A stretch of 64,000 nucleotides of DNA from Polytrichum commune. Lineage: Eukaryota; Streptophyta; Polytrichopsida; Polytrichales; Polytrichaceae. A program made the position numbers and the translations under genes. The notes under the pieces were generated by a model, which did not search any database, was not told the origin of the DNA, and saw only the letters and a program-made list of their open reading frames with translations. Of this stretch, positions 34,165 through 53,560 are shown piece after piece. The first letter of the stretch is position 1, and every line of letters starts with the position of its first letter. The DNA is taken from the NCBI GenBank assembly GCA_950295325.1, contig OX485803.1:76213554-76277553 (forward strand), in the 5' to 3' direction.

Positions 34165-35077
34165 ATGGAAGAGGCAGTAGGGGTGGAAAATTCGAACATG
34201 AGCTCAGATTTTGGAAATGAACCACTCAAAGGAGAAGCTGGAGAGTGCCTTCCTGAAGGCTATTATTGCAATGCCAACGGCTGCCTCCTGGGACCGGGTC
34301 CTACACTTAGATCTCTAGATCTGTGTGTGCTTAAAGCTAAGATTCAATTTGTCTGGTTTGGTCACCTTCTAATTGCAACCTTCATTGGGCCTAAACCTAA
34401 GCTTGGAATCTTGCAGCCATGGTTGGAAGCTCTCAATTCTGAAACTAAGCAAGGTAGGGTTTCCTTCAATCATGAAGTTGGGGCACATATTCTTCTATCT
34501 CAAGTGTGACAATCAAGAGACAACCAAACAAATGCTAATAATGCAAACTCCTTTCCACAACGATTATGGTTCTTGTGTATTCCATCCTTGGGTACCAACC
34601 TTTGATGCTGACAACCCCTTGGGACTTCAACTCCCCACACGGAGAACTAACAAACGCCTTCCTCTAGAACACCTTCAATTAGCTCATGTGGTAGCACCTG
34701 AAGTTGGTGACGTTCTAGGTTGCGACCCAAACGATGCTACTTTTAAGCACCCCAAATTCTATGTTTCTCCAATGTTGAGAAAGGGTGTCAGAGCTACAAA
34801 GTTCAAATCAACTACATTAACACCAGAGTTTCTTCCAAAGCCATTATTTAATTACGACTCCTTTATGATCATGTGTTGCTTCTGTTTGTCAACAAAGCAC
34901 CTGATCAAAGGATGCAGAGAAATTCCAACAAAAGGTACGGCTCACGTGTTTTCTGCAAGACCACACCCTGGATCTGGTCTCGGCCACTATACTCTTCACG
35001 AGGCCAAGTCACATGGACTCCAGACCTCTAAGGTAGAAATACCCAAACTTGTTAGCCACCCTTTACCCGTGCACTAG
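34165..35077 (+). pseudogene. DUF4283 / zinc-knuckle protein fragment of retroelement type
   Basis: The first part (34,165 to about 34,490) includes LLIATFIGPKPKLGILQPWL. A one-base frameshift near 34,490 moves the reading to the frame of 34,373-35,077, which continues with VFHPWVPTFDADNPLGLQLP, LPLEHLQLA and a CX2CX4HX4C zinc knuckle (Cys168, Cys171, His176, Cys181 of that frame, about 34,874-34,915). This order matches plant DUF4283 proteins, usually encoded upstream of the reverse transcriptase in LINE-type elements. No reverse transcriptase follows, so it is an isolated fragment or a domesticated relic. The frameshift argues against a working gene unless an intron corrects it. Confidence 0.6.
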
Positions 35078-46414: not shown

Positions 46415-49400
46415 TCACTTGTAATTCAGGAGCTTGCGGCGCTCGACAAGGCGATCCAGAATGTGCCTCCTGACAGTTTCCCAATGTGACTCCAACAGCG
46501 GACCTTTAGTTCCACCATCCACCACATAAAAGATGTCTAGTACATAAGAGTCTTGTGTCGATATTTTGGCCTTCTTGACACTGCAATCAAAGCATCAGAA
46601 GAGTAAGGAGAAAATGAAGTGCCTCATGTTACAGTGTAAGGTGCTCCATCAAAGCTTCTGTACTTTGAAAATAATGTGTGAAGAGCAAGAGTTGTGGCAA
46701 TCATTCAGGGTGAATGAGGTCCAAACTGAATTATAATGTCATGGCCTCCAAAATACACAATATTATCAACACAACAGAAAGCTCTTGACTATACATTTCT
46801 TATACACTGGAAACACAACACACGTGCTCTCAAAGCAAGCTCAAATAGTCCAAACAAGACATGCAAATAGCTTAAATTCCTTGTTCTCAGAAAAGAAAAT
46901 TGCTGAAGAATGTGATTTACCTCACTCCAGTTTCATTGAATGCAAGTGTGAGGTCAAACAGTAACATGTCTTGGTCCACTCCCTCTACAGTGACTTCTGT
47001 TTGCCCATCATCATTCTGAAAATAAACTTGAAAAGTTGGTTCTTCGTTTCCAATATTAGTGACCTCCATTGAGACAACCGCCTCAGCATGTTCAAGGGGC
47101 TCAGGTGCTACTTTGCCTGCCATCGAGGCATCACTTGAAGACAACGAGGTATCATTGTTCTCTGGATCCATCTGCAAAAGAAAGGTGCCGTCCGTAAGCT
47201 ATACATTAGCCATTTCTAAGCTTTGCACTGTAAATATAGAATCATTGAGCTCTCCTTATCAAGCAACATGTTAATCCGTAACCAGCTAGCAATTGCATAT
47301 CACCTTCTCCCGCCCATCCCTCTCCAGTCACCAATTTCATTTCATTTGCATTTTCAACAACTCAACCTCCTTCCAAGTGTCTCTGTATCTTTGACTGCAT
47401 CATTAGGAAAGGAGGTGCCAGGGCACCACTACATCCAGTGTTCAACTTTCAGCCATGTCCTGTCCTGTTTTTTGGGACTCCCTAAACCTGCAGATTCAGT
47501 GATTTTTATGTGTGCACGTTTCTAAATCACATTAATTCCTAAGGTAGAAATCTTGTGACCTCCATACTGATTTAATCTTCTAGTATATATTGTGACAATT
47601 GTCATAATTACTTGAATAACAGATATTTAATAATAGACACGGTGCTTTTGATGCTATGACTATACATGTATAAAAATATTGTATTGAGATATGACATAAG
47701 AGCCGTACATCTCTCTAGTAGCTGAACATTTTCTTTAATTTCCTCATTTACATGGTATTTACTACGACCCACATTAAGTTAGGAGTCCATACTTCTTTTG
47801 ATAGTATGAGGTGTTGCAAAGTGATTGAAGTCTAAAATTATCATGGTGAAGAGTCATAAACAGAATGTAGACTTTCACAAGAAGGCCATAGAAATGCTTA
47901 CAGGCAAGTGCCAATGAAGCCTTGTAGCATAGTCTTCAACGTTAGAGACCTGAGAATTTGTGTGCCAAACATCATGATTAGAAAAGTTAAAAAGACAATT
48001 ATAGACACTATTGTACAAGAGGGGTGAGTCATATGAGGACAGAGCTCCCTAGTGGATGATACTTTGCATTTCTTTTGTGATTGACATGACATATCCAACT
48101 ATCTAATTAACATGACATATCCAACTGTTACTTAGAGACTACTGCCGAAATTGGGAACTGACAGACATAATAGTTTGGAATGATATTGACTCAGCATTAA
48201 CAAGGTAGAAGCTTCACCTTTACAACACCTTCATGTTGAGGATATACTGAAGGTGTGTTGCATAGTGACCCTACAGAAAGTTCACTTGCTGTGGAGTATG
48301 ATGCCGTATCATCACACAAGTGCACCGGAGGACCTGCTTGTGTGCTCTCGAAAGAGGTTCCAGAGCTATGATCAAGTGCAGCAAGCTGTAACCGCCACTG
48401 CTCAGCAAGACTCTGCATAGACTGGAACTGATCTCCCACACCATCTACAGAGGGGCTCACAAGAACAACGTCAGGACATCTTATAAACTAACTACAATTT
48501 CAACATTGCACTACATGTCACATAAACATATGATCCTTGACTCACCAGGATTGAATATATCATGTTGGCCAAGTTCACCTGGGTAATGAGTATCAACATC
48601 ACTCATATCAAGCCCCAAATAATTTACAAGATTATGTCCTCCACTGTTGGTCTTCTCAGAGTTCTGCTGTTCCAACTCAATCATGGACCCCTCTGCCGTA
48701 GAGCCTGAGCTCTGTGAAGAGACATCTGATTTTGCAGATAAGAAAAGGCTGCTGGAAGATAGATGGGCAGTGTACGATGGACTTCGACATATACCCTGTT
48801 CTTGAGAGTACTCCCTATCATTAATGGGATCTTCACAGCCCTCATACCACTTTCTCCTGTATAGCACACATAATTAGTGCATCTGATAAGTAAACGCCAT
48901 GTAGAAACAGTTCTGAGGAAACCCTGCAATATGACTATTGCAATTGTTACTGTCTATCCAGTTCCCTTACTCAATAAAATGAGGCACTTCAAGGATAACA
49001 TTGAAAATGTCACAAGTTTGACTCTTGTCTAAAAGACCAAAGTCCTTTGTCACAAGGAAGACAATATCCTCATATACAGGATGTGACAAAGTTTTAACAT
49101 GACTAAAATTTAAGAAAGATACATGAGACAATAGAACTGACAAGTAGGGGAAAGACAAGTTTGAAAGCAAAAGTAGGATCCTTATTAAAAGACGGTTTGC
49201 CAACCCCTCTATTCAATCCTTCAAATAAATCAGAAAATCAAAGCTAGAGTTTCGCCATCTCCTTAGATCTCCATTTTGAGATGATTAGTGCAACTCACCC
49301 TCGATTGAAATCCTCCCAGGTGACAATCTTGGTCACTTCAATCCCTCGGTTCAATGGAAGAGTAGAAGAATCAACACCAGGTTGTCTCCTCACATGCCGA

Positions 49401-52365
49401 ATGTACTCATTTGTGACATCATCTAGGGCATTATCAGCCACCACAACAGCTCCTTTTTTCAGCTTCAATAGGTCGAATAGTTCGATGTAGCGTTGAGGCA
49501 AGCCAGATAACAGCACAAATTCCAATCCTGTGTTCCAATTCTTGAAGTTAGATTTAGAATTTGAGCACAAAGCCATTACAGAATCAAATCATTCTGGAAC
49601 TAATTGCACATTCAAAAGCAGAAAACATGCTCTCGACCTTTGGCTTTAGAACTGAAGAGATAAATTTTCATCAATATTTGAACACTTCCTAAATTCCAGA
49701 CTGACAAGAGTCCAGACAATGTCCAAAATAAGATCCATCAACCACAACGAAGACCCCTTCTGCTTGTCTCTTGAATAGAGACACCCCAAATATACCGTCT
49801 CTCTGAGGAACGAAGGTTGAAGGATCCTCCGTGATGAAATCCACATAATCAATCAACCCAACCTCCTTCAAAAATTTCTGAACAATCTGCTGCTTCTCCT
49901 CCTCATAGTGCACAGACCACAAGTGGCCATTTGTTGCTCGTGCAGCTGCAGAAAGAGCAGAGTAAGTTCTAACAAAAGGATCTCCACATTTGGAGTAAGA
50001 CTTGGACAATGGATTCTGCAAGATGTCAATTACATCTGAAGGAGAGAACTGAGGCTGTAGCAAGAGAGGCAAGAAAGCAGAAAACAGATGAACATAGGTA
50101 GAAAATCAGAGATGGAAGAGTGTAGGTTCCTACCTGCAGCAAGAGTGACAGTCGACAATCCACATCCTATTTGCAGGATATGACGTGAATTGATCCCAGC
50201 TGCCAAAGCAGAAACAAATTCTGCACTTGAAGGTTCCACAATTGGGGCTCTTTGTTTACCCCTCCGAAACGAGTGCCTCTTCTCAAGTAGCACCCTACGC
50301 TGCAAACATTCAAAGCTGTATGGTTAGCTCTTTCAGGATCATTCGTACCAGTACAACATGACATCAACTTAAGAAAATCAAGAGGTGGATAGTGGATATA
50401 ACTTTCAAAGTGAACACCTTCTGACTGAAGCGCTTCTATTAGATTCAATATATAAACTACAATATCACTCACAGAAACCAGAACATACCAAATACATGTT
50501 AACTGTAGGTGCAATCGTCTTGAATATCGAAGGGAAGGGAAGGCGAAGTCAATGCAGCTTCACGAATGGTGACAGAACAGGTTATCGAAAGAATGCTAGA
50601 CTTACCAGGTCTAAAGATTCACAAAACGCAGTTGTTGAAATGTCTGAGTTCCACCGAATCTCGGAGAAGTAATTCCCAGGCATTCTCCTGCAGCCAGCTG
50701 CTTAGTGCGCCTCCTTTAGCGCACCCAAAAATCATCACACATCTACTTCAATGTTGTTAGGATCCACCTCTTCTGCCCTCCCTGCACCCCACTATCATTG
50801 ACCTTGTAAGGTTTTCTGAGTAACCTAACAACAAAACAAAACAAAACAAACAAGCACCCCCAAACACCACCAGAAAACAAACAAGTACTAGGATGATCTC
50901 AAACAGAGCCCGAGTGATTCTTCAAGAGCAAAAAACTCGATTTTAAGTTCAGCAACCACGGAGAGGTTAATACAAAGGGGCAATATGATTTGCAATAAGC
51001 GTACAAGTGAAGTCTTTCAGAAGGAGACACATCACAAAAGTAAAGTGACATGGAGGGTGCCCTTCAGAACGGGATCGGTGAAAATAATCTATGTGCATTT
51101 GTTGGGAGTACTCGAAATACTTTCTAGTTACAAGAAATTGAAGGCAAGTACTACAATGAACCAATGCCAGATTCCTTCTCTTTCCCAGTAGTTGTCAAAT
51201 CTCATCCAGCGTATGCAACATATCATAAATCTCTGAGACAGAAGGTGCCTTTCAGAACGAGATGGATGAAAATAATCTATGTGCATTTGTTGGGACTACT
51301 CGAAACACATTCTGGTAACAAAAAACTGAAGGCAAGTACTACAATGAGCCAATGCCAGATTCCTTCTCTTTCCCTGAAATCGTTAAAAGACCAGATAAAA
51401 AGAGAAAAAAAACTATTCATTTAAGAGTCCAGTTCTATTGTAGAGCTTGCCAAGGTGGAACATCACTTTACGTCACTTTGCAAACAGAAATGGCTGAGAC
51501 GTTGAACTAACGATGTCATTATAACGTTGTGACAATGGAGCTGCCATTAGTCACTCACACATTTCATAATTACACTGAACATCAGTTTGCCGTAACAGTA
51601 TTAATCGGACAAGCATGTTCGAAGTCCGAGGGCAAAGTTTCTGTCATAATTCAAGACATAAAAAGGAAAATTCGCTCTTTTACTTCAGTTGACTTCACTT
51701 TGCAAACAAAACTAGCTGAAGTTGTGACAGTGGAGCTGCCATTACTTTCTCATACATTTCATTATTACAACGAATATAAGGTTGCCTCAATAGTCTTGAT
51801 GAAACAAACATGTTCGATTCCGAGGGTAGACTTTCTGTTATCATTCAAGACATTGGGAGGAAGACTAGCTAGGTTCACTTTGCAAACAGAAATAGCTGAG
51901 ACCTTGAAGTAGCGATCGATTATAACACTGCGACAGGGGATCTATCATTACCCACCACACATTTCATCGTTACACTGAACATCAGGTTGCCGTAACAGTA
52001 TTGATCAGGTGAACATGTTCGAAGTCCGAGGGCAGAGTTTCTGTCATAATTCAAGACATAAAAAGGAAGACTCGCTCTCAAGGCATGTGCTAAGACGATA
52101 AAACCCTAGCATATGGGAGAGAGAAAGAGAGAGAGGAAAAAGAAGTATGGTGCATTTAAGTACTCACTTCCGCTGCACTCACAGGTTCAGGATGAACGAT
52201 ACAGGCGGTCAAGATGACACATAGTTGTGGTCTCTTATTACACAGGTGTCGTATGCCAGCCACTGTCTCAGGATCATTCAACAACGTCTGACAAGGAGGT
52301 CCACCACAAGCTTTGGCTGGCCGCACGGCTCTGTCGATTGTTTGCCCTTCACACATCACTCGCAT
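46415..52365 (-). CDS. Methyltransferase-like (COMT/DUF1442-type) protein with C-terminal ACT domain
   Basis: Eight exons: 52365-52168, 50299-50134, 49945-49796, 49527-49299, 48856-48546, 48444-48218, 47171-46921 and 46580-46415. They join in frame to 1,698 nt (565 residues). Residues 67-220 form a Rossmann domain: SAEFVSALAAGIN, motif I LQIGCGLSTVTLAAAAR (about 108-124), then LEFVLLSGLPQRY and AVVVADNA (198-205). The order matches catechol-O-methyltransferase-like and plant DUF1442 proteins. The ADN metal motif is kept, but the expected first metal Asp (FLD-type) is Ser in LLSG. Residues 248-427 are Ser-rich and probably disordered. About 455-545 form an ACT domain (VEGVDQDMLLFDLTLAFNE, SVKKAKISTQDSYVLDIFYV) like those of GlnD/ACR proteins. 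The substrate is unknown; no transit peptide is obvious. The start is the first in-frame ATG after a stop at about 52,435. Exon 7 itself begins with ATG, so exons 7-8 could instead be a separate 138-residue ACT protein, with the first gene ending in TAG or TGA near 48,197. cDNA would decide. Confidence 0.75.
51030..51400. repeat. Intronic tandem duplication, about 190-bp period
   Basis: Inside intron 1 of the methyltransferase-ACT gene, GTGCCCTTCAGAACGGGATC at about 51,057 and GTGCCTTTCAGAACGAGATG at about 51,246 start two copies of about 125 bp, each ending in CAATGCCAGATTCCTTCTCT. Confidence 0.85.
51470..52085. repeat. Three degenerate tandem copies of about 200 bp in intron 1
   Basis: CACTTTGCAAACA(G/A)AA starts copies at about 51,472, 51,694 and 51,876. 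Each copy contains a GAGCTGCCATTA- or GATCTATCATTA-like segment, CACACATTTCAT, an ACATGTTCGA block and TCATAATTCAAGACATA (the middle copy is most diverged). They produce the open frames seen on the plus strand, which are not genes. Confidence 0.8.
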
Positions 52366-53560
52366 TTCAGCTCCTTGTGTACGAACCTCTCTTGTATTGG
52401 AAATTTCTCTCCTCTCCGCTTCTGTGAGAGTCTCTTATTAAGAACAGTAATATAGCTACTTAGAAAACAGAGAAGATCGTCGCCCCGCCTCTTAGTACCA
52501 ACTCCTTGGCTGCTGCCTCTCCATATCCATTGTAATTATCCAACCTATCGTCGAACAAAAGGCTTTTAAAAGAGGTTTATAAGAAAAAAGAGCGTTTCTA
52601 TGCGACGACTACAAAGCTTCCAATGCGATGGCACCTGAGCGAATACTTAGTTGCCTAAGTAGCAAAGAAAGGCAGTTGGTTGCAATAAGTAGTCTTTGTT
52701 GTTGTAACCCTCGGACCAAAATGTGATCTAAGATATTTTGAACCTGCAGTTGCTCTTATTACATTTTCCTTGTAATGCTAAGAAACGTTTTCTGGATAAT
52801 TCTGAGGTTGTAACTTAGCACACCTTTCTCCTCGCTCGCTCGCTCTCCACCTCCTTACCTCGTCATCTTATCCATAAAAGCTAGAAAAGGCAAAAACCTC
52901 GATGAAGAAGAAGCATCAAGGCTCGTCACGACAACATTCCAACCAAGACGAGAAACAATCATAAGCTAAGATTACTTTAACCTCCTCTTCTTAAAACCTG
53001 ATTTTGAGCCTCGCTGCGCAATCAATAAGCAATAACAATCTAATCAAATAAACCCCCACGGGCCGTGTCCAGCTCAATTTTCTTGATAAAAAGAGGCTCA
53101 ACGTTGAAGCTGGAGGATAGGAAAGGAAGATTGAAGGCCGTAAGTAGGTTGATGATGCTCGACGGTGACGAAAATCGCAACAATTTAGGGCAGAATTCAA
53201 GACCTTTGAAGGAGAATTGCCGGTTGAGCACAAGAGAAAGGCGGAGCGAAGGCAAGGGACCAGGAGCGCGGGCCGGGTGATATATACAGGGGCTCCCATT
53301 GGAAACCCGACCCGCTATGGACACGGATTACCCGCCATCTCGCTGCTCAGCACGAGTCGCCGGGCTGTGAGGGGTTCGCATTGGGCGCCCGGGCCACCAT
53401 CGCCCACGTCAGCACGGGTCGCCGGGTTCGACTTGCTATTTCGTTGGCTGCTGACTTGTCGCAAGGAGAGCCCACCCCATGGGATCACGGGCCGGGCCGG
53501 GCCGGGCCGGGGTGTTCCCATCCATACACAAGGAACTATGCTGAGGACCCATAATTGATA
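52366..53560 (-). promoter_or_regulatory. Upstream region of the methyltransferase-ACT gene, GC-rich block
   Basis: The nearest 600 bp are ordinary upstream DNA. From about 53,200 to 53,520 the sequence becomes strongly GC- and CpG-rich, with repeated GGGTCGCCGGG and GGGCCGGGCCGGG motifs, like a CpG-rich plant promoter. Frames on both strands at 52,990-53,575 follow from the base composition and are not supported as genes. A leader exon could lie here. Confidence 0.4.

Follow-up and report, generated by a model that had tools for sequence, protein, structure and literature searches.

A duplicated Polytrichum commune gene predicted to join a methyltransferase-like domain to an ACT domain

Our analysis indicates that one predicted gene in the window (the whole 64,000-nucleotide stretch of Polytrichum commune DNA analysed here, C1:76213554-76277553) encodes a methyltransferase-like domain, a Ser-rich linker, and a C-terminal ACT domain, a reading that is well supported by sequence comparisons. 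We consider it probable that this gene specifies a methyltransferase-like pseudoenzyme fused to an ACT regulator and that the fusion has been kept as two old duplicates. A role as a sensor or scaffold appears more likely than one as a regulated methyltransferase, because several key enzyme residues are replaced. The duplicated and conserved fusion is a concrete protein to test, and it offers a handle on DUF1442.

In a model drawn by hand from the sequence, the window gene comprises nine coding exons on the minus strand between 50683 and 46415 (Table 1), is predicted to encode 541 amino acids, and has GT-AG introns whose phases fit. Six sense codons separate ATG 50683 from the upstream in-frame TAA. 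The linker between the methyltransferase-like and ACT domains spans about 236 residues and is poorly conserved except for one segment, around SMQSLAEQWRLQLAA, which could be a candidate contact site. An earlier note on this DNA had described a minus-strand, multi-exon frame running from a methyltransferase-like domain through a Ser-rich linker to a C-terminal ACT domain, and this description holds, with the LQIGCG and VVADNA motifs present and the splice phases fitting. Its eight-exon model stands as regards the fusion and the phases, but it omitted the 48-nt exon at 47949-47902, which the paralogue described below has too, and its start at 52365 is better replaced by 50683. We infer the joins of that model (from ATG 52365..52168, or 52183, to 50299, and from 48218 to 47171), since the note lists no exons and gives only the start at 52365, the count of eight, and the span 48,218-47,171.

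Table 1. Predicted features of the window gene and its leader region (window coordinates)
Feature	Position	Strand	Evidence
Leader-exon region with conserved upstream ORF (ATG 52365, MRVMCEGQTIDRAV...), exon 1 of the earlier note	52168..52374	-	best donor 52168/52167
Coding exon 1 (start codon at 50683), MPGNYFSEIRWNSDISTTAFCESLDL	50606..50683	-	counterpart kept in L005 2382-2459; in-frame TAA upstream
Coding exon 2, methyltransferase-like domain, altered motif I LQIGCGLST	50134..50299	-	blastn against paralogue, COMT alignment
Coding exon 3, methyltransferase-like domain, LWSVHYEEEK; His at usual acidic position	49796..49945	-	blastn against paralogue, COMT alignment
Coding exon 4, methyltransferase-like domain, LLSGLPQRY replaces Asp/Lys motif; VVADN kept	49299..49527	-	blastn, structure-relative alignments
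Coding exon 5, Ser-rich linker	48546..48856	-	blastn against paralogue; exons 5-6 dN/dS 0.52
Coding exon 6, linker, conserved segment around SMQSLAEQWRLQLAA	48218..48444	-	blastn against paralogue
Coding exon 7, 48 nt, VSNVEDYATRLHWHLP	47902..47949	-	45-nt counterpart L005 6352-6396, phase and splice sites alike
Coding exon 8, start of ACT domain (GlnD/ACR-type); ATG at its beginning in both copies	46921..47171	-	
Coding exon 9, remaining ACT domain and stop codon	46415..46580	-	

A second locus on the same chromosome, C1 (locus L005), holds a complete readable gene of 538 residues and nine exons, with the phases and domain order of the window gene; its exon model was likewise drawn by hand, by analogy with that of the window copy. 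Window and paralogue exon lengths are 78/78, 166/166, 150/150, 229/229, 311/302, 227/230, 48/45, 251/251, and 166/166 nucleotides, so that six exons are equal and exons 5, 6, and 7 differ by -9, +3, and -3, respectively, and all eight introns differ in length between the copies. Because the paralogue reads with the same nine coding exons and identical phases, the fusion is more than chance. Comparison of the two loci by blastn (E up to 1e-3) gave 11 similar blocks, all of them on exons: ten fall on the nine coding exons, and the eleventh matches the leader exon. No block extends more than about 15 bases beyond its exon. When the 408-Mb assembly was searched, all four matches to the ACT part fell in these two genes (two each in the window gene and at C1:38.203-38.204 Mb), as did six of the seven matches to the methyltransferase-like part (three each in the window gene and at C1:38.199-38.200 Mb), the remaining one being on C2.

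The duplication is old, as the overall dS between the copies is 0.93. Each copy is followed on its 3' side, in the same orientation as the gene, by a COP1-like RING exon (at C1:76232305 and at C1:38217822, with 100 and 85% identity to the query, respectively), which suggests a segmental or larger duplication. Both the methyltransferase-like domain and the ACT domain are under purifying selection: in the window-paralogue comparison (Nei-Gojobori, with bootstrap 95% ranges), dN/dS was 0.18 (0.11-0.27) for the methyltransferase-like part and 0.105 (0.05-0.20) for the ACT part, which shows the strongest constraint. The linker exons 5-6 gave 0.52 (0.33-0.83) and the first 41 codons of exon 8 gave 0.285 (0.12-0.74); the values for exon 1 (0.27, range 0.07-1.2) and for exon 7 alone (0.35, range 0.08-2.1) were not significant.

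The methyltransferase-like domain resembles plant DUF1442 proteins in that both copies pass the Pfam model DUF1442 (PF07279), with 37.6 bits for the window gene and 34.5 bits for the paralogue against a cut-off of 27, over residues 48-204 and 48-206, respectively. The Pfam models Methyltransf_3 (20.3 and 17.7 bits, cut-off 22) and Methyltransf_24 (21.6 and 22.2 bits, cut-off 26.3) stayed below their cut-offs in both copies. Its solved relatives are family-3 O-methyltransferases and COMT (alignments with 8c9v, 7cvu, 6jcl, and 4p7f), the best being 8c9v, which is named an O-methyltransferase (E 1.5e-11), and the DUF1442/COMT-like assignment made previously is thereby borne out. The homology to COMT and to caffeoyl-CoA-type (family 3) O-methyltransferases extends over the core of the SAM domain, and the window gene retains the Asp-Asn pair; it differs from COMT in that the Mg ligand Asp, the Lys, Glu90, and the motif-I Glu are replaced, and in its fusion to an ACT domain.

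These replacements are read from distant alignments, the match to COMT 4p7f having an E value of 2.4e-4, and they are common to both gene copies. The acidic residue of motif I is part of the methyltransferase SAM site, and it is Gln here, LELGAYCGYS of COMT aligning with LQIG--CGLS in a Gly-rich loop that is two residues shorter. TMEIN aligns with SVHYE, which places His at Glu90, and FLDHWKDRY aligns with LLSGLPQRY, which places Ser at Asp141 and Pro at Lys144. LLADN aligns with VVADN, in which the equivalents of Asp169 and Asn170 are kept. According to one COMT study, Asp141, Asp169, and Asn170 are Mg ligands, Lys144 deprotonates the substrate, and Glu90 contacts SAM (PMC5001633). The Mg-ligand trio is thus incomplete in both copies, the equivalent of Asp141 being Ser. 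Loss of the Lys alone says little, since 8c9v is also without Lys at this place (LDSERSQY).

The match on C2 of the same genome is a stand-alone DUF1442 gene, a single open frame of 211 codons (L006 1476-2111, minus strand) that is 37-39% identical to the methyltransferase-like domain and that, in contrast to the fused genes, has no ACT match nearby in the genome search. It keeps the Asp (ALIDCRRDQY), and its motif I is altered too. A search of the genome with the DUF1442 family matched only this gene and not the exons of the fused copies.

In the ACT part, seven NCBIfam GlnD models match each copy, with best E values of 8.8e-8 and 1.1e-10, and these matches, together with the alignment, agree with the earlier assignment of a GlnD/ACR type. 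As the models match over the ACT part alone, their scores fall far short of the cut-offs set for the full length. Pfam ACR10_N (12 and 18.4 bits) and ACT_4 (13.9 and 12.9 bits) were below their cut-off of 27 in both copies, and the ACT profile retrieved no ACT structure from the PDB, its one match there being at chance level (E 1.5). Identity with the ACT part is 30-34% for three ACR-like ACT domains encoded in this genome and 23-25% for the two E. coli GlnD domains. In both copies, Met replaces the Gly of the beta1-alpha1 loop (DQDMLL and DQEMLL, against GLL in the three ACR-like domains and in GlnD ACT2), a residue described as near-invariant in PMC3173338. E. coli GlnD ACT1 likewise lacks the loop glycine, so its loss is no proof against ligand binding. 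The same paper likens ACR11 and ACR12 to the ACT domains of GlnD, and ACRs are described as ACT repeats without a recognisable catalytic domain (PMC6081435, PMC3173338). In contrast to that family, the window protein has one ACT-like stretch plus DUF1442 in a full-length Pfam scan, and not ACT repeats alone. Its ACT domain is homologous to the C-terminal ACT domains of GlnD, but it is single, lies behind a methyltransferase-like domain, and carries Met at the loop glycine.

These features can be weighed against three other readings of the locus. Two neighbouring genes might have been misjoined, a methyltransferase-like gene that ends near 48197 and an ACT gene whose start codon is ATG 47171; exon 8 does start with ATG in both copies, and a frame that ran on past exon 6 into the following intron would stop after 6 codons in the window copy and after 33 in the paralogue. 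However, the paralogue has equivalents of the linker exons and of the 48-nt exon, in the same phases and with length changes in threes, the methyltransferase-like and ACT parts are adjacent and in the same order in both copies, and between the parts the similar blocks lie on exons only. We regard two separate genes as highly improbable and rejected this model on the exon layout and phases of the paralogue.

The protein might instead be an active SAM-dependent methyltransferase switched by a ligand on its ACT domain. This is in line with the homology to O-methyltransferases (8c9v, E 1.5e-11), the retained Asp-Asn pair, the purifying selection on the domain, its fusion to a domain of regulatory type, and the fact that 8c9v itself lacks the Lys, but it has to be reconciled with the loss of the Mg ligand Asp, Glu90, and the motif-I Glu in both copies, a shortened Gly-rich loop, the absent Lys, and the replaced ACT loop glycine. 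We therefore consider such an enzyme unlikely, and the 'ligand-gated methyltransferase' of the earlier note, set against the COMT Mg, catalytic, and SAM residues and the ACT loop Gly that are replaced in both copies, appears doubtful on sequence grounds. Other chemistry or SAM binding is nevertheless possible, because the Asp-Asn pair and a recognisable motif I are kept and the methyltransferase-like part is strongly conserved. By a related reading, which we judge rather improbable, the methyltransferase fold would bind SAM/SAH or another metabolite without catalysis and couple this binding to the ACT domain; the conserved fold with its motif I remnant and Asp-Asn pair, and an ACT part that is the most strongly constrained, would suit such a sensor, but His stands where COMT has Glu90, which contacts SAM.

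For the pseudoenzyme fused to an ACT regulator, the reading that we prefer, our results lead us to propose that the N-terminal class-I methyltransferase fold of the DUF1442 kind would have lost Mg-dependent O-methyl transfer and would act as a binding or scaffolding module. The ACT domain would mediate dimerisation and may also sense a small ligand, and the whole protein might therefore serve as a metabolic sensor or as a regulator of a partner, as has been suggested for plant ACR proteins, while the conserved upstream ORF of the leader, described below, probably tunes translation. More speculative, and in our view a doubtful prospect, is a class of plant regulator undescribed in the literature searched, which would combine a methyltransferase-fold pseudoenzyme with an ACT sensor in a single chain and respond to a metabolite, either an amino acid or SAM/SAH, under translational control by a conserved upstream peptide. 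In the literature searched, which leaves most subscription journals outside it, no study of DUF1442 function or of a methyltransferase-ACT fusion was evident; the eight papers there that name DUF1442 and the two under related identifiers appear, by title and abstract, to be surveys or screens, with no functional study evident among them.

Upstream of the coding exons, the leader blastn block (52374-52298 against L005 1758-1831; 80.5% identity over 77 columns) contains a candidate conserved-peptide upstream ORF. Over 22 aligned codons of this ORF (MRVM.EG.TIDRAV), 17 residues are the same in both copies, and there are 8 synonymous and 5 non-synonymous changes (dS 0.81, dN 0.11, Fisher p 0.0015), figures that come from one sequence pair and a manual alignment containing one codon gap. 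When the genome was searched with the window peptide, the only matches listed were the window itself and one at chance level (E 0.67), and the paralogue's copy was missed. Spliced at its best donor (GAA/GTGAGT), the frame from 52365 leads in frame into 50299 in the window copy. In the paralogue, the same leader donor is in phase 1, and only three weak GT sites (2-3 of 8 consensus bases) are in frame. Because the donor phase is not kept in the paralogue, the leader frame fits a conserved upstream ORF better than a protein N-terminus, and the 52365 exon was rejected as the N-terminus on this ground and because another N-terminal exon is conserved; an isoform that uses it is possible in the window copy. 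Repeated stretches, e.g., gggaaagagaaggaatctggcattgg and tatgtcttgaattatgacagaaact, each present twice, occur at about 52060-51130 (minus strand) in the intron that separates the leader exon from coding exon 1.

Wider searches were made as well. Scans of prokaryote and virus contigs gave 53 and 68 pattern-matching stretches, respectively, and no confirmed relatives, a weak negative since each scan had only two short peptide patterns. Rfam had no match within the window at the gathering score.

The gene 3' of the window copy, which we take to be COP1-like, lies at about 13.2-19.1 kb (minus strand) with its RING exon within 19126-18734 (Pfam RING, 6.1e-12) and a coiled-coil-like frame near 16.8-16.4 kb. 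Pfam recognised the RING only, and a WD40-like piece at 13697-13236 had no Pfam match at E 0.01. The genome search gave 14 RING matches, of which three, the window's own among them, have at least 68% identity. Elsewhere in the window, a 234-codon open frame at 34373-35074 (plus strand) has a CCHC-like knuckle (CCFCLSTKHLIKGC) and may be what is left of a retroelement gag; Pfam gave no match to 155 of its residues. The best solved match to the Rubisco encoded on contig C8 of the same assembly is 9chz, and the gene order on that contig, which suggests a non-seed plant and perhaps a moss, places a tRNA-Arg(CCG) between rbcL and accD.
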